A stretch of DNA of 64,000 nt, taken from contig JAGYIV010000014.1 in assembly GCA_018402345.1 (NCBI GenBank), forward strand, positions 62,001 through 126,000. The letters are read 5' to 3'. Under the pieces are notes generated by a model. That model was not told where the DNA came from. It did not search any database and saw only the letters and a program-made list of their open reading frames with translations. Both the position numbers and the translations under genes were made by a program. The DNA is from Terrimicrobiaceae bacterium. Lineage in GTDB: Bacteria; Verrucomicrobiota; Verrucomicrobiia; Chthoniobacterales; Terrimicrobiaceae. This document shows, piece by piece, positions 56,086-62,891 of this stretch (positions are counted from its first letter, which is position 1; each line of letters starts with the position of its first letter).

Positions 56086-58089
56086 ATGTCCCGCTTCCGA
56101 CTTTATGATTTGAATCCCGAGCAGCAGCGCGCGGCCACCCATGAGAGCGGGCCGTTGCTGATCCTCGCGGGTGCAGGCACCGGCAAGACACGCACGATTG
56201 TCGCCCGCATCACCTGGCTTGTGTCGACCGGCACGCCGGCGTCCAAAATTCTGGCGGTGACATTCACCAACAAGGCCGCGCGCGAGATGAAGGAGCGGAT
56301 CGCCGGGATGCTCACCGAGGAGCAGGCCGACGACATCACCGCCTCGACCTTCCACGCCCTCTGCGTGCGCATCCTGCGGGGTGATGCCGACAAGCTCGGC
56401 TACAAAAGCAACTTCACCATCTTCGACGAAGGCGACCAGATGGGACTGATCAAAAAAGTCATCAACCGTGTCACGGCGAAGGACGAAAAAATCGATCCCG
56501 GCCTCGCGAAGAATATGATCAGCAAGGCCAAGAACAACGGTTGGGCGGCCCCGGAGGACGACGAGACTGTGATCGGCGCGGTGTATTCGTGCTACAACCG
56601 GGAACTTCGCGCGCTGAATGCGATGGATTTCGACGACCTGCTCACCAATGCCGTGCGGCTGTTGAACGACCATCCCGACGTGCGCGACAAGTGGCGCGCG
56701 CGGTTTTCGCACATGATGGTCGACGAGTTCCAGGACACAAACCGCCTCCAACTCGATCTCGTCAGCCTCCTCGCCTCCGGCGACCCGCCGAACGTCTGCG
56801 TGGTGGGGGACGACGACCAGAGCATCTACGGATGGCGCGGTGCGGAGGTGTCGAACATCCTCGAGTTCGAAAAACATTTTCCGAATCCCGAGGTGATCCG
56901 CCTCGAGCAGAACTACCGCAGCACAAATACGATTCTGACGGCGGCGAACCGCTTGATCAAAAACAACCCGAGGCGGCGCGCCAAGAGCCTGTGGAGTTCG
57001 GTGCAGGGCGGCGATCCAGTGCATGTGGTCTCGGTGCCCGACGACAAGACCGAGGCCGAGTTCGTGGTCGGCGAGGTGGGCGCGATCCGCAACGCGCAGC
57101 GTGTGCCGTGGGAGCAATTCGCGGTCATTTACCGCATGAACGCCCAGTCGCGCCTCATGGAGGAAAACCTGCGGCGGCTGCGGATTCCCTACCGGTTGGT
57201 CGGCGGAAAGAGTTTTTTCGATCGGCGAGAGGTGAAGGACATCCTCGCCACGATCACGTGCCTGGTGAATCCGCAGGAGGACATTTCGCTGCTGCGGATC
57301 ATCAACACGCCGCCGCGCGGCATCGGGGCGACCACCGTGGAGATCGCGCTCGAGCACAGCGCCAAGGCGCATCGCAGCCTGTTCGACACATTGACCGATT
57401 CCGCCTTTGAGGAGCAGGTGTCGCGGAAAACGGCAGCGGCGATCCGCGAGTTCGCCGAGAACCTCGCCGCCGTGCGGATTCATCTCATGACGCCAGGCGC
57501 GGATGCCGCCGCGCTGGTCTCGAGCTATCTGGCCGACACCGGGTATTTCGAGGATTTGAAACGCTCGTGCAAAACCCCCGAGGAGGCGCTCAATAGAGAG
57601 GGCGGGGCCAAGGAGATTCTGAACGCGCTCGCGACCCACCAGGCCAGAAAACGCGGGTCGGTGCAGGATTTTCTCGATGAGTTGTCGCTGAACCGCGAGC
57701 GCGAGGAGGACAAGAAGGACGACGGCACTGGGCTCACGTTGATCACGCTCCACGCTGCGAAGGGCCTCGAGTTTCCGCATGTGTTTCTGATCGGTGCCGA
57801 GGACGGTCTTCTTCCACACGAGCGCTCGAAAACAGAAGGCACCGTCGACGAGGAGAGGCGACTTTTCTATGTCGGCATCACCCGCGCCATGAAATCGCTC
57901 ACGATCACGCAATGCCGGAACCGCATGAAATTCGGCTCCGCCATGCATTGCCGTCCCAGTCCGTTTCTCAAAGAGATCGAAGGCGAGGGCGTGCATGCCG
58001 AGACCTACGAGGATATCATGTCCCGCCCGCTCGATGAAGAAGACATCGGATTCTCCTTCGCCAGCATCCGCGCGAGCCTCGATGATTAG
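56086..58089 (+). CDS. ATP-dependent DNA helicase, UvrD/PcrA/Rep type
   Basis: 667 residues. SF1A motifs: Q motif LNPEQQRAA, Walker A AGAGTGKT (28-35), VTFTNKAAREMKER (Ia), DEFQDTN (II), GDDDQSIYGWRGA (III), EQNYRS (IV), TLHAAKGLEFPHV (V) and YVGITRAM (VI). It unwinds DNA in repair and replication restart. It is shorter than E. coli UvrD (720) with a reduced C-terminal tail that ends soon after motif VI. Confidence 0.95.
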   Translation: MSRFRLYDLNPEQQRAATHESGPLLILAGAGTGKTRTIVARITWLVSTGTPASKILAVTFTNKAAREMKERIAGMLTEEQADDITASTFHALCVRILRGDADKLGYKSNFTIFDEGDQMGLIKKVINRVTAKDEKIDPGLAKNMISKAKNNGWAAPEDDETVIGAVYSCYNRELRALNAMDFDDLLTNAVRLLNDHPDVRDKWRARFSHMMVDEFQDTNRLQLDLVSLLASGDPPNVCVVGDDDQSIYGWRGAEVSNILEFEKHFPNPEVIRLEQNYRSTNTILTAANRLIKNNPRRRAKSLWSSVQGGDPVHVVSVPDDKTEAEFVVGEVGAIRNAQRVPWEQFAVIYRMNAQSRLMEENLRRLRIPYRLVGGKSFFDRREVKDILATITCLVNPQEDISLLRIINTPPRGIGATTVEIALEHSAKAHRSLFDTLTDSAFEEQVSRKTAAAIREFAENLAAVRIHLMTPGADAAALVSSYLADTGYFEDLKRSCKTPEEALNREGGAKEILNALATHQARKRGSVQDFLDELSLNREREEDKKDDGTGLTLITLHAAKGLEFPHVFLIGAEDGLLPHERSKTEGTVDEERRLFYVGITRAMKSLTITQCRNRMKFGSAMHCRPSPFLKEIEGEGVHAETYEDIMSRPLDEEDIGFSFASIRASLDD

Positions 58090-58148
58090 CGCGGCTCCGG
58101 GATTTGGCTTGCGTTCGGGCCGGAGCGAAAGGAATTTTGCGGAAGTTT

Positions 58149-58236
58149 GGAGGGGTGGCAGAGTGGTCGATCGCGCCGGTCTTGAAAACCGGAGGGCCGC
58201 AAGGTCCCGTGGGTTCGAATCCCACCCCCTCCGCCA
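58149..58236 (+). tRNA. tRNA-Ser (anticodon UGA)
   Basis: 88 nt with a 7-bp acceptor (GGAGGGG/CCCCTCC), D arm GGTCGATC, anticodon stem CCGGT/ACCGG with loop CTTGAAA (anticodon TGA, reads UCA), a serine-type long variable arm (GGGCCGCAAGGTCCC) and T arm GTGGGTTCGAATCCCAC. The CCA end is encoded. The tail from the T arm to CCA is copied twice in the repeats that follow. Confidence 0.97.
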
Positions 58237-58374
58237 TATCCGCGCAGCGGATTCTGAATCCTAGGTTTGGGATGAGAACGAAGTTCGAGCGCCGCTCAGC
58301 GGCACAGACCGCGCGAAGCGCGGCCCCGAAGGGGTGAAGGCCGAAGGCCGGAATCAATCCCACCCCCTCCGCCA
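58237..58374 (+). repeat. Tandem repeat unit 1, 138 bp, ends with a copy of the tRNA-Ser 3' end
   Basis: It starts TATCCGCGCAGCGGAT directly after the tRNA CCA and ends AATCCCACCCCCTCCGCCA, the 3' end of the tRNA. It holds a chain of small perfect hairpins with 3-nt loops: ATCCGC-GCA-GCGGAT (58238-58252), GGATT-CTG-AATCC (58249-58261), GCCGC-TCA-GCGGC (58291-58303), CCGCGC-GAA-GCGCGG (58309-58323), CCCC-GAA-GGGG (58324-58334) and GGCC-GAA-GGCC (58339-58349). Confidence 0.9.
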
Positions 58375-58512
58375 TATCCGCGCAGCGGATTCTGAATCCT
58401 AGGTGTGGGATGAGAACGAAGTTCGAGCGCCGCTCAGCGGCACAGACCGCGCGAAGCGCGGCCCCGAAGGGGTGCAGGCCGGAGACCGGAATCAATCCCA
58501 CCCCCTACGCCA
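58375..58512 (+). repeat. Tandem repeat unit 2, 138 bp, slightly diverged
   Basis: A second copy in direct tandem, with a few substitutions. All hairpins are kept; the last becomes CCGG-AGA-CCGG (58479-58489). The tRNA-like end is altered (CCCCCTACGCCA), so the terminal acceptor-like match is weaker than in unit 1. Confidence 0.9.
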
Positions 58513-58596
58513 AATCCGCGTAGCCGTCCCGGCCTTATTGAGACTGGCTTGCTTGCACATGCTCCACCTATCGGATTGATGGAGTCCTCTGCCTTA

Positions 58597-58760
58597 CACA
58601 GGCGGGACGCCTGTGCCCCTCTCTTGAAGTCCGAAGCAACGGGCAATTTCCGGATGAGAACGAAGTTCGAGCGCTTTTGGACTTCTGGAATGTAGTGCGG
58701 GCGTCCCGCCTGCGATCGTAAGTCATTCGATGTCAGGCGGGACGCCCTGACCTACATAAG
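58597..58760. repeat. Cluster of REP-like palindromes (GGCGGGACGCC family)
   Basis: Three related palindromes occur in 160 bp: CACAGGCG-GGA-CGCCTGTG at 58597-58615 (perfect 8-bp stem), GCGGG-CGT-CCCGC near 58697-58709, and GTCAGGCG-GGA-CGCCCTGAC near 58732-58751 (one bulge). A partial copy of the tandem repeat core (GGATGAGAACGAAGTTCGAG) lies at 58652-58672, and a degenerate one near 58868-58892. No protein gene is seen in 58513-58895. Confidence 0.7.
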
Positions 58761-58895: not shown

Positions 58896-60095
58896 TTACA
58901 GTTTGTGGCCCATTTTCTTTTTTTTGGTTTCGAGGTAGCGGGCGTTGTGGGGGTTGGATTTCGAGCGGATGGGGAGTTGTTCGACGATTTGGATGTCGTA
59001 AGCCTCGAGACCGACGACTTTGCGGGGGTTGTTGGTGAGGAGGCGGATTTTGTGGACGCCGAGGTCGGCGAGGATTTGGGCGCCGAGGCCGTAGTCGCGG
59101 AGGTCCATGGGAAAGCCGAGGCGGAGGTTGGCTTCGACGGTGTCGAGGCCGTCCTCTTGGAGTTTATAGGCGCGGATTTTGGGGCCGAGTCCGATGCCGC
59201 GTCCCTCCTGTCGCATGTAGAGGAGGATGCCGCTGCCCTCCTTTTGGATGCGCTGCATGGCCTGATGGAGCTGGGGGCCGCAGTCGCAGCGGCGCGAGCC
59301 GAAGACGTCGCCGGTGAGGCATTCGCTGTGCACGCGAACGAGGGTGGGTGTGGAGGCGGAGATTTTTCCCTTCACGAGGGCGATATGGTGCATGCCGTCA
59401 ACGAGGGAGCGGTAGAGGTGGAGATCGAAATCGCCGAAGTCGGTGGGCATGAGGATGGTTTCCTCGCGTTCCACGAGGCGTTCGCTCTTGCGCCGGTGGG
59501 CGATGAGGTCCTGGATCGAGCACATTTTGAGGCCGTGCTTGCGTTTGAATTTGACCAGATCGGGCAGGCGGGCCATGGAGCCGTCCTCCTTCATGATCTC
59601 GCAAATGACGCCCGAGGGGTCGAGGCCGGCGAGGCGGGAGAGATCGATGGCGGCCTCGGTGTGGCCTGCGCGGCGGAGCACGCCGCCGTCCTTGGCTTGG
59701 AGGGGAAAGACGTGGCCCGGTTGGACGAGATCGCCGGGTTGGGACTTGGGATTGGCGAGGACGCGGATCGTGGCGGAGCGGTCTTTGACGCTGATGCCAG
59801 TGGTGGTGCCTTTGGTGGCGTCGACCGAGACGGTGAAGTCTGTTTTGAAGAGCTCTCGGTTTTGGGCGACCATGCGCTGGAGACCAAGGCTGGCGGCGCG
59901 TTCGGTGGTGATGGGGGCGCAGACGAGGCCGCGTCCGAATTTCACCATGAAATTGACGGCGGCGGGGGTGACTTTGGAGGCGGCCATGACGAGGTCGCCT
60001 TCGTTTTCGCGGTCGGCGTCGTCGGTGACGATGACCATCCGGCCTCGCCTGATGTCCGCAATGACTTCGGGGATCGTGTCGAATGGTTTTTTCAT
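58896..60095 (-). CDS. ribBA: Bifunctional riboflavin synthesis protein RibBA
   Basis: 399 residues from MKKPFDTIPEV. DHBP synthase half (~1-205): DDADRENEGDLVMAA, RPGHVFPL-like GHVFPLQAK, and GHTEAAIDL. GTP cyclohydrolase II half: VRVHSECLTGDVFGSRRCDCG (zinc Cys), RQEGRGIGL and TNNPRKV. It supplies both precursors of riboflavin, from ribulose 5-phosphate and from GTP. No FMN riboswitch was recognised in the 96 nt before it. Confidence 0.97.
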   Translation of the reverse strand: MKKPFDTIPEVIADIRRGRMVIVTDDADRENEGDLVMAASKVTPAAVNFMVKFGRGLVCAPITTERAASLGLQRMVAQNRELFKTDFTVSVDATKGTTTGISVKDRSATIRVLANPKSQPGDLVQPGHVFPLQAKDGGVLRRAGHTEAAIDLSRLAGLDPSGVICEIMKEDGSMARLPDLVKFKRKHGLKMCSIQDLIAHRRKSERLVEREETILMPTDFGDFDLHLYRSLVDGMHHIALVKGKISASTPTLVRVHSECLTGDVFGSRRCDCGPQLHQAMQRIQKEGSGILLYMRQEGRGIGLGPKIRAYKLQEDGLDTVEANLRLGFPMDLRDYGLGAQILADLGVHKIRLLTNNPRKVVGLEAYDIQIVEQLPIRSKSNPHNARYLETKKKKMGHKL

Positions 60096-60191
60096 GGGTG
60101 GGGCAAGCGATACCACACGCTGTGGCGGGAGGAAAGGAGGTGTGTTTTCAAAAAACTGGCGGGGTGGAGCGAGGTTTGAGACGGTTGGCTG

Positions 60192-61463
60192 ATGCCGGAA
60201 AACGACCTCCACCGTTCGTTGGAAATCCACAAGGGGTTGGTGGAGGTGAGTGCGTTGATCAATGGAATCACGAATCGCGAGGCGTTGTTGAGGGAGGTGC
60301 TGGACGTGGCTCGGCGGGTGATCGGTGCGGAGGCGACGTCCATCTTTCTTTGGGAGGAGGAGAGCGGCAACTTGAGGCTGGAGATGGATGCGCGGGGCGG
60401 GGGCTGGGTTGAGCGGCCTGGGATCGTGGTGCCGCGGGGGGCAGGAATCGCGGGGTGGGTCTTCGAGACCGGCAAGGCGCAATTGATTCCCGATGCTTAT
60501 GCGGATGCGAGGTTTTTCAAGGAGGCGGACAAGGTGACGGGTTTCAGGACGCGGTCGATCCTGTGCGCGCCATTGATCGCGGGAAGTCGCACAATCGGGG
60601 TGCTGCAGGTGCTGAATCCTGCGGCGAAAGAGTCATTCGACGCCGTGGAGTTGGAGGGACTGGTGGCGCATGCGAATCTGGCGGCAACGGCGATTGGCAA
60701 GCTGCAAGCGCTCGAGCGGGAACGCGAGCGCGAGCGACTCGAACGGGACCTGGCGGTGGCGGCGGAGATCCAGCGTGAGCTTCTGGCGCGTGCGATCCCG
60801 CAAACGCTGAGCGGAGTGGTTTTCGCAGCGCACAATGTGCCGGCGGCGTGGGTGGGCGGTGATTTTTACGGGGTGTTTCCGCGGGGGGATGGAGATGTTG
60901 ATTTTGTGATCGGCGATGTCTCGGGCAAGGGGATGCCTGCGGCGTTGCTCATGGCACAGACGCTCAGCGCACTGCCGTTTGTGTTTCAGGCGGCGGGTGG
61001 ACCCGCGGAGGCGCTCGGGCTGCTGAACCGCACATTCAGCGAAGGCATGGTGCGCGGCATGTTTATCACTGTGCTGGCCGGGCGGATGCGACCATCGCGG
61101 CGGGAGGTGATGCTGGCGAGCGCGGGGCATCCGTCGCCGGTGGTGGTGGATGCGGTTGGGGTGGCGCGGGAGTTTGGGATTCCAGTCGGCTTGCCGGTGG
61201 GTATCACGCCGCAGGTGGATTATTCCCATAGTGCAGTTCGCTTGGATGTAGGCGGTCGGGTGGTGTTTTTTACGGATGGGCTGGCCGAGTCGCGTGCGGC
61301 GGCGGGGGGATGTCATTTCCAAGACAGGATGCTGTCTGAAATCTCGGGTCCGCCCGACACATGCGTGGGAATGATGCGTCGGGTGGTGGAGGCGGAGGGC
61401 AGGCACCGCGGGGGGATGGCGTTGCGCGATGATTTGACCGTGCTGGTCGGCGCGTTTGAGTGA
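60192..61463 (+). CDS. GAF domain plus SpoIIE/RsbU-type PP2C phosphatase
   Basis: 423 residues. GAF domain at ~15-170 (GAEATSIFLWEEE, GAGIAGWVFETG, SILCAPLIAG, GVLQVLNP). A charged coiled-coil linker at ~172-190 (ALERERERERLERDL), then SpoIIE phosphatase at ~195-423 with WVGGDFYGVF, IGDVSGKGMPAALLM, LASAGHPSPVV, VFFTDGLAES and LRDDLTVLV. It likely senses a small ligand and dephosphorylates an anti-sigma antagonist. No anti-sigma gene is nearby. It is divergent from ribBA, and rseP follows after 51 nt. Confidence 0.93.
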   Translation: MPENDLHRSLEIHKGLVEVSALINGITNREALLREVLDVARRVIGAEATSIFLWEEESGNLRLEMDARGGGWVERPGIVVPRGAGIAGWVFETGKAQLIPDAYADARFFKEADKVTGFRTRSILCAPLIAGSRTIGVLQVLNPAAKESFDAVELEGLVAHANLAATAIGKLQALERERERERLERDLAVAAEIQRELLARAIPQTLSGVVFAAHNVPAAWVGGDFYGVFPRGDGDVDFVIGDVSGKGMPAALLMAQTLSALPFVFQAAGGPAEALGLLNRTFSEGMVRGMFITVLAGRMRPSRREVMLASAGHPSPVVVDAVGVAREFGIPVGLPVGITPQVDYSHSAVRLDVGGRVVFFTDGLAESRAAAGGCHFQDRMLSEISGPPDTCVGMMRRVVEAEGRHRGGMALRDDLTVLVGAFE

Positions 61464-61514: not shown

Positions 61515-62891
61515 ATGTTTTTCGACGGACTGAAATTTCTCTTTATCTGCCTTGAGGTCATTCTGATTTTCAACCTGCTCATCGTGGTTCACGAGTTGGG
61601 GCATTTCCTCGCCGCGCGCTGGCGCGGTCTGGTGGTTGAGAAGTTTGCGATCTGGTTCGGCAAGCCGATTTGGAGCAAGACGATCGGTGGGGTCGAATAC
61701 CGGCTCGGCTCGATTCCGGCGGGCGGGTTTGTGGCGATTCCGCAATTGGCGCCCATGGAGGCGATCGAGGGCGAGAGCGGGCAGAGCCGTGAGCACCTGC
61801 CGCCGGTGAAGCCCCTCGATAAGATCATCGTGGCGGCGGCGGGTCCGCTGTTCAGTTTCGGACTTGCGTTTGTGATGGCGTGCATCGTGTGGATGGTCGG
61901 CAAGCCGCAGAGCGAATTCGACACAACGATTGTCGGCTATGTGAAGGAGGGTGGGCCCGCCGCTGTGTCAGGGATGCGGCCTGGAGACAATATTCTTTCG
62001 GTCGATGGAAAGCCTGTGAAGCATTTCTTGAGCGGCACGGACAGCGTGAAGTGGCGTGTGGTCCGCAGCGAAGGGGAGACGATTCCGATCGTGGTCGAGC
62101 GCGAGGGCCAGGAGATCACGCTGAATTCGGGGTGGGCGAAGCCCGAGACTTCGAGTTGGAGGCGGCCTGCCTTGCGGGAAATCCAAATTGGCCCGCGCAT
62201 CGTGCCTGGCGTGGGGTTTGTGGTGCGAGGAAGTTTGGCCGACACGTCGGGATTGAAGGCTGGGGACCTTGTCACCGCTGTGAATGGAGTGCCGCTTTTC
62301 AATCTCAGCGAACTCGGGCCGGTGATCGACGCGAACCGCGGGAAGACGGTGGCATTCGAGATCGAGCGGAATGGCCAACCCGCCACAGTGGACGTGGCAT
62401 TGCCGCCCGCCACGGCGGATGCCACGCCGGTGGATTTCGGCATCGAGTGGGGGCGCACGAAGTTGGTGCATCCGTCGCCGTTCGCCCAAGTGTCGGATGC
62501 GGCGACGAGTATTTTTCGCATGGTCGGGGCGTTGCTGTCGCCGGCGTCGGATGTCAAAGCCGCGCATTTCAGCGGGCCGGTGGGCATCATGCGGCTCTAC
62601 TACCAGATTTTCGAAGCCGAGGACGGATGGAGGATCGCGCTGGCGTTCAGCGTGCTGATCAATGTGAACCTCGCCTTGCTGAACCTGTTGCCATTTCCGG
62701 TGCTCGACGGCGGGCATATCACGCTCGCGATCATCGAGGCGATCCGCCGCAAGCCGATCAGTGTGCGGGTGCTTGAGGTGGTCCAAACCGGCTGTGCGTT
62801 GCTTCTGATCGGGTTCATGCTTTACCTGACCTTCTACGATGTCGGTGACATCGTCGCGGACAGCAAGCCGCCGGTGGAGCGGAGGAATTAG
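61515..62891 (+). CDS. rseP: RIP metalloprotease RseP
   Basis: 458 residues starting at MFFDGLKF. Zinc-site HELGH at residues 26-30 in the first helix and the LDG motif (FPVLDGGH) near the end. Two PDZ domains lie between ([16 protein letters not shown] and [14 protein letters not shown]). It cuts transmembrane segments of anti-sigma factors or leftover signal peptides. Located 2 nt before ispG. Confidence 0.95.

Follow-up and report, generated by a model that had tools for sequence, protein, structure and literature searches.

Why should a tRNA gene be followed by tandem copies of its own 3' end, set apart by short stretches of noncoding sequence? The question is raised by the tRNA-Ser(UGA) gene of a Terrimicrobiaceae bacterium, which lies in the 64,000-nt stretch analyzed here (the window; positions 62,001 to 126,000 of contig JAGYIV010000014.1). 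The original prediction likened the array behind this gene to the direct repeats that integrases leave at tRNA att sites, and offered two readings of it: a noncoding satellite that integrates at or amplifies from tRNA genes, or a processed RNA cotranscribed with the tRNA. One known system has a bearing on this choice. The rtT repeats of the E. coli tyrT operon were first described decades ago; rtT is a small stable RNA released during tRNA processing, for which a tie to the stringent response has been proposed. To our knowledge, rtT has remained a one-off since its description.

Two 138-bp units follow tRNA-Ser(UGA)

The tRNA-Ser(UGA) gene occupies positions 58149 to 58236 on the forward strand, as do all features of the array (ARAGORN; 56.6 bits with the Rfam tRNA model). 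Behind it, direct repeats at 58218 to 58355 and 58356 to 58493 (each 138 nt, 97% identity) are followed by a third piece of 31 nt (58494 to 58524, 90%), forming by far the strongest array in the window (Tandem Repeats Finder; period 138, 2.2 copies, score 565). Each unit has the same plan, read 5' to 3': an arm a' ending in GGAT, GA, a GAAC...GTTC hairpin, a second GA, small hairpins, and an arm a (ATCC...CCA). The source of arm a is the last 18 nt of the tRNA (ATCCCACCCCCTCCGCCA; 58219 to 58236).

Spacer 1 (58237 to 58266), which contains the mini-hairpin ATCCGC-GCA-GCGGAT at 58238 to 58252, leads into arm a' of unit 1 (TTGGGAT, 58267 to 58273; complement of 58357 to 58363). The conserved RtT-like motif of this unit, GGATGA-GAAC-GAA-GTTC-GA (58270 to 58288), is a hairpin with GA on both sides and starts 33 nt behind the tRNA on the same strand. 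It is followed by a variable core (58289 to 58356) with the mini-hairpins GCCGC-TCA-GCGGC, CCGCGC-GAA-GCGCGG, CCCC-GAA-GGGG, and GGCC-GAA-GGCC, and by arm a (58357 to 58374), which is identical to the tRNA 3' end through CCA (18/18). Spacer 2 (58375 to 58404) repeats spacer 1. Arm a' of unit 2 (GTGGGAT, 58405 to 58411) differs from that of unit 1 by one base and belongs to a 10-nt arm at 58402 to 58411 (90%); the same conserved motif (58408 to 58426) and a core with the same mini-hairpins (58427 to 58494) then precede arm a (58495 to 58512), which matches the tRNA 3' end in 17 of 18 positions (CTCC to CTAC). Repeat comparison placed the end of the array in a partial third spacer (58513 to 58524). 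It also found a solitary third copy of the motif, lacking arms, at 58652 to 58674, which is probably a decayed unit. The 23-mer GGATGAGAACGAAGTTCGAGCGC shared by these copies occurs three times, versus zero in 100 shuffles, ruling out chance. The near-identical units closing in the tRNA 3' end that were originally described are thus borne out.

The interval had also been described as noncoding and packed with mini-hairpins. Consistent with this, no coding candidate was found in the window array, and the units are dense in short hairpins with 3-nt loops. The spacers of the array were likewise searched for an intrinsic terminator, and none was found. The arms of unit 2 are complementary (GGTGTGGGAT/ATCCCACCCC), and its minimum-energy fold contains the a'/a helix (z of −2.4); unit 1, whose mutated a' brings one further mismatch, has a minimum-energy fold that lacks this helix and is modestly better than shuffles (z of −1.4). 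Collapse of the repeat as an assembly artifact is unlikely, since the units are not identical and independent assemblies of relatives carry one to five of them.

Three further observations concern the surroundings of the array. Between it and ribBA, positions 58599 to 58747 hold inverted repeats based on CAGGCGGGACGCC, including a 20-nt pair at 90%, which look like a separate dispersed palindrome family. A subthreshold Rfam match to sX4 (RF02223; 43.2 bits, cutoff 70) spans the tRNA and spacer (58138 to 58279), and a weak match to the same model occurs on the E. coli tyrT operon, suggesting that sX4 may contain a class II tRNA plus trailer. A 29-nt match elsewhere in the same genome (C2:606066) was considered as a further copy and was taken as chance, given that no tRNA or motif lies nearby.

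The units resemble E. coli rtT

A covariance-model search had been proposed as a check on the array. The Rfam RtT model (RF00391) matched both units (37.9 and 37.7 bits; E of 8e-5 to 9e-5 in 5 kb), and a search of the whole genome picked out both (E of 1.1e-5 and 1.3e-5). Because these scores fall short of the Rfam gathering cutoff of 45 bits, we file the units as RtT-like rather than as members of the Rfam family. Among 14 control genomes, the model rang in E. coli alone. When 20 family loci were tested at this cutoff, units were recovered in just 2. In 114 genomes from the class of Pseudohongiella, the model rang in 18, with 5 above the cutoff; nearly all of the 30 loci fetched from this class sit close behind tRNAs for Ser, Gln, Tyr, Glu, or Val.

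We compared the window with the tyrT-tyrV operon of E. coli MG1655 (NC_000913.3:1285800-1287600), which holds four RtT units built on the same plan (a' GGGGAAGGAT, a ATCCTTCCCC...CCA). In both species, tandem units lie directly behind a tRNA, each closes in the tRNA 3' end, and a' is complementary to that end; both also share a GGATGAGAA...TTCGA hairpin motif with tandem GA, plus GC-rich mini-hairpins. Behind tyrV, the CCA of the first unit's copy is also the exact end point of the annotated RNA rttR (b4425). The tandem-GA motif in RtT has been reported independently (PMC7657543). The systems differ in the tRNA and lineage (tRNA-Ser(UGA) in Verrucomicrobiota versus tRNA-Tyr in enterobacteria) and in unit length (138 versus 178 bp). 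In the window, the a'/a pairing is also shorter, at 7 nt (10 with one mismatch), and the hairpin has a 3-nt loop, in contrast to the longer hairpin of E. coli. Given the shared plan in MG1655, the E values near 1e-5, and the matches in the class of Pseudohongiella, homology of the window units to RtT is well supported, and the family as curated in Rfam looks too narrow. We found no generalized RtT family in the literature searched, in which older papers are thinly covered.

RtT-like units follow many tRNAs in several lineages

A single occurrence lacking relatives would have spoken against the original prediction. Instead, relatives are many, and nearly all lie behind tRNA genes. Among the 97 related genomes searched, most of those belonging to the genus have units behind serine tRNAs (Ser-UGA, Ser-GGA, and Ser-CGA), and the motif GGATGAGRACGMAGTTCGA (up to 2 mismatches) occurs in 37 of the 97, versus far fewer matches of a reversed control. 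In GTDB genome contigs, GGATGAGRACGMAGTTCGA was found in 98 stretches, mostly from Verrucomicrobiota (Akkermansiaceae, Opitutales, and Chthoniobacterales, including Chthoniobacter flavus Ellin428, where the unit lies behind tRNA-Glu). Outside this phylum it was found in Pseudohongiella nitratireducens, Oleiphilus, Rhodospirillaceae, Rickettsiales, and Saccharibacteria records. Placement is strongly biased. Exact motif matches in GTDB genomes number 111; 81 of them follow a same-strand tRNA at a distance of less than 700 nt (4.6% expected by position), and none lies ahead of a tRNA or on the strand opposite to it. Among the 19 exceptions, several sit behind displaced or truncated tRNA pieces. 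Across the motif loci, the GAAC/GTTC ends and the flanking GA are constant, and the inner hairpin varies.

A wider pattern, GGATGAGAACN{1,25}GTTCGA, was also searched. Its strictness makes it overlook true units, and some of the genomes counted are chance matches. The pattern occurred in 60 of 388 genomes of Verrucomicrobiota, 33 of 274 in the class of Pseudohongiella, 10 of 190 in the class of the Rhodospirillaceae metagenome-assembled genome (MAG), and 2 of 145 in the phylum of the Saccharibacteria record, with a handful of matches for its reversed control. Of the places matching this pattern in fetched loci, 27 of 35 from the class of Pseudohongiella and 21 of 36 from the Verrucomicrobiota set lie behind a tRNA, versus 1 of 80 in viral contigs. 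For 24 tRNA classes covering 13 amino acids, a copy matching the adjacent tRNA end in 13 or more of 18 nt was confirmed; Trp brings the total to 14 types. These copies span Verrucomicrobiota, Gamma- and Alphaproteobacteria, and Saccharibacteria. The tandem number ranges from one to five units per locus.

Among viral sequences, the wider pattern matched at least 120 stretches in IMG/VR, of which 80 were scanned and 1 adjoins a tRNA (L249); the others look like chance. In this exception (L249:2596-2636), tRNA-Ala(GGC) is accompanied by a unit and a genuine copy of its own end. This unit lies between a symporter gene and an endolysin; because of the symporter gene, it is probably host DNA at the edge of a provirus. 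In a separate case, a contig binned to Eubacteriales (CSMAG_119) carries nearly the same tRNA-Arg-type unit as the Verrucomicrobiota MAG CSMAG_116 from the same project (L121 and L200), and is probably misbinned.

Both arms are fitted to the adjacent tRNA

Arm a reproduces the 3' end of the neighboring tRNA, from the T-loop to CCA. Across the family, copy identity is 0.96 to 1.0 up to CCA, 0.92, 0.92, and 0.85 in the last three bases, 0.67 at one base beyond the tRNA 3' end, and then ~0.4. The boundary of the copy is therefore sharp and coincides with the tRNA 3' end. Tests of whether copies derive from mature RNA with an added CCA gave no support, as genes lacking an encoded CCA have copies that lack it too.

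In the other arm, a', the GGAT is constant; its pairing partner is the ATCC that nearly all tRNAs carry in the T-loop and T-stem. Beyond this fixed part, a' forms 2.34 of 3 Watson-Crick pairs with tRNA positions 63 to 65 (T-stem), versus 1.01 in permuted data, and 2.02 of 5 pairs with positions 66 to 70, versus 1.54. Where the tRNA has a G-U pair, the base in a' is A in 18 cases and G in one, indicating that it answers the 3' strand of the tRNA and ruling out that it is a duplicated 5' strand of the T-stem. We quantified covariation in a composite alignment of the arms and inner hairpin, with the variable core deliberately omitted and with copies picked for their similarity to the tRNA rather than for complementarity to a'. 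In the arms, 78.7% of cells were paired (69.0 ± 0.8 in shuffled data), with a covariation score of 0.247 (0.102 ± 0.010 shuffled; 0.07 to 0.12 in slid controls) and 138 cells with two-sided changes (74.5 ± 7.3 shuffled; 40 to 69 slid). The GAAC...GTTC hairpin is lengthened by variable complementary bases (90 extra pairs versus 31 ± 5 shuffled), so that its stem changes while the GA flanks persist.

In some lineages the a'/a helix covers both the T-stem and the acceptor strand. A Pro-GGG unit (CGGGACTACAGGAT/ATCCTGTAGTCCCG; L189) forms 14 pairs; Ile (11 pairs, L197), Glu (13, L403), and Arg (12, L408) units also form long helices. Differences between the copy and the tRNA were informative at 19 sites: the partner of a' is the tRNA at 13 of them and the copy at the other 6. 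This split, which counts against the interpretation favored below, may reflect decay of the end copies; alternatively, a' may pair with the tRNA itself. The re-fitting of the arms could be due to selection on RNA pairing or to templated correction, both of which fit the data.

A proposed RNA mimic of half a tRNA and its alternatives

We favor, with moderate confidence, the interpretation that the window holds a two-unit array of RtT-like noncoding elements, whose trailer RNA mimics the acceptor/T half of a tRNA and is matured at its 3' end like one. The trailer would be transcribed together with the tRNA, and a' would then pair with the distal arm a to form a mimic of the T-stem/acceptor half that carries the mini-hairpins and a free, CCA-like 3' end. 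The enzymes that mature tRNA 3' ends may trim the 3' end of this mimic, and there may be a cut on its 5' side as well; a small stable RNA would be released, as for rtT. The least certain step is what the released RNA does. Its simplest target would be the output of the tRNA gene from which it comes: acting as a decoy, competing for the enzymes of the tRNA 3' end, or serving as an alternative partner of the tRNA 3' strand would each fit the anatomy. Tandem arrays may grow through recombination between the duplicated tRNA ends, and units may arrive at other tRNA genes by transposition or conversion and then be re-fitted to the new tRNA.

A possible but less probable alternative is that the unit is primarily a DNA element, a satellite of ~110 bp that inserts or recombines at tRNA 3' ends, takes its arms from the target, and is transcribed only incidentally. 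Cores do recur at different tRNAs of one genome, suggesting that units also spread or convert: the Ser-GCU and Ser-GGA cores of the Rhodospirillaceae MAG are 100% identical, the Ser-CGA and Ala-UGC cores of genome G086 are 90% identical, and closely similar cores lie behind the Trp, Asn, and Lys tRNAs of genome G867, where the Lys copy is an Asn/Lys mosaic. At a Ser-GCU locus (L120), the second unit carries foreign, Ser-GGA-type arms. Some units are preceded by terminators, and repeated spacers trail many last copies. Judged as a miniature inverted-repeat transposable element (MITE), which has fixed terminal inverted repeats and a target duplication, the unit gives a mixed picture: its arms are inverted repeats that vary with the adjacent tRNA, and its spacer is duplicated in some loci only. 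However, the unit is noncoding and no protein partner was found for it, the exact motif has zero matches in IMG/VR, the hairpin and arms covary as paired strands, and a defined RNA is made from the unit in E. coli. REP/BIME sequences and MITEs are likewise short, palindromic, noncoding DNA present in many genomes. They are scattered, whereas RtT-like units are tied to tRNA 3' ends and to one strand, and have arms that follow the neighboring tRNA.

It is improbable that the units are a passive by-product, in which the tRNA 3' end and its trailer are duplicated in tandem, a' is kept complementary by templated (quasi-palindrome) correction during replication, and the product has no function. Units do decay easily within the genus, as seen at the uvrD/ribBA site itself (L014 compared with the window) and at a second shared site, where units are decayed or truncated (L009 and L011 compared with L007). 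In Salmonella, rtT behaves as a variable-number tandem repeat (PMC2658671). Local duplication, however, cannot yield a family in which one 19-nt motif stands behind unrelated tRNAs in several phyla, nor would it be expected to keep the GA flanks although the hairpin stem changes.

Least probable are attL/attR scars of a tyrosine-recombinase island or phage at the tRNA 3' end: the repeated segment (T-loop to CCA) is the usual att core and such sites also show direct repeats of tRNA 3' ends, but the interval here is ~100 bp, noncoding, and bordered by an arm on each side, the 267-kb contig of the window has no PF00589 integrase match (all seven matches in the genome are on other contigs), genes for a UvrD-type helicase (56086 to 58089) and RibBA (58896 to 60482) flank the array in an order conserved in genome G005, and att exchange accounts neither for a' as an inverted copy of the tRNA 3' strand nor for a core that stays the same behind different tRNAs while its arms match each of them. 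Some units do lie behind displaced tRNA 3' ends that resemble scars and lack a tRNA body (L196, L211, L187, L176, and L157), and these may mark old island junctions. At these loci, the unit travels with the displaced end, indicating that it is older than the insertion.

The original interpretation is thus partly supported. Its cotranscribed RNA has a precedent of the same anatomy in E. coli rtT, its amplifying satellite agrees with the recurring cores and variable copy number, and its att-site reading fared worst, retaining the direct repeat itself.

Implications and exceptions to the proposed cotranscription

Extending the interpretation as an RNA mimic beyond the window, we think it more probable than not that RtT is a bacteria-wide class of tRNA-trailing, tRNA-customized RNA units that are mobile between tRNA genes and re-fitted in both arms, spanning at least 14 amino-acid types and at least four major lineages. 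If so, an undescribed process of copying or selection would operate at tRNA 3' ends, and the units would have a general role in the output of tRNA genes. With the RtT architecture present behind Ser, Pro, Gln, Glu, Arg, His, Ile, and other tRNAs, a one-off becomes a general, testable problem: what does a mimic of half a tRNA do when it is made beside that tRNA, and how are its arms tailored? For annotators, duplicated tRNA 3' ends can occur in the absence of any island.

An intrinsic terminator lies between the tRNA and the unit in 15 of 125 loci, which counts against simple cotranscription at those loci. Strong terminators of this kind were observed in Akkermansiaceae behind tRNA-Pro or tRNA-Thr (L118, L123, L134, L159, L173, and L189), and this terminator-bearing group also holds the longest arms (13 to 14 pairs).
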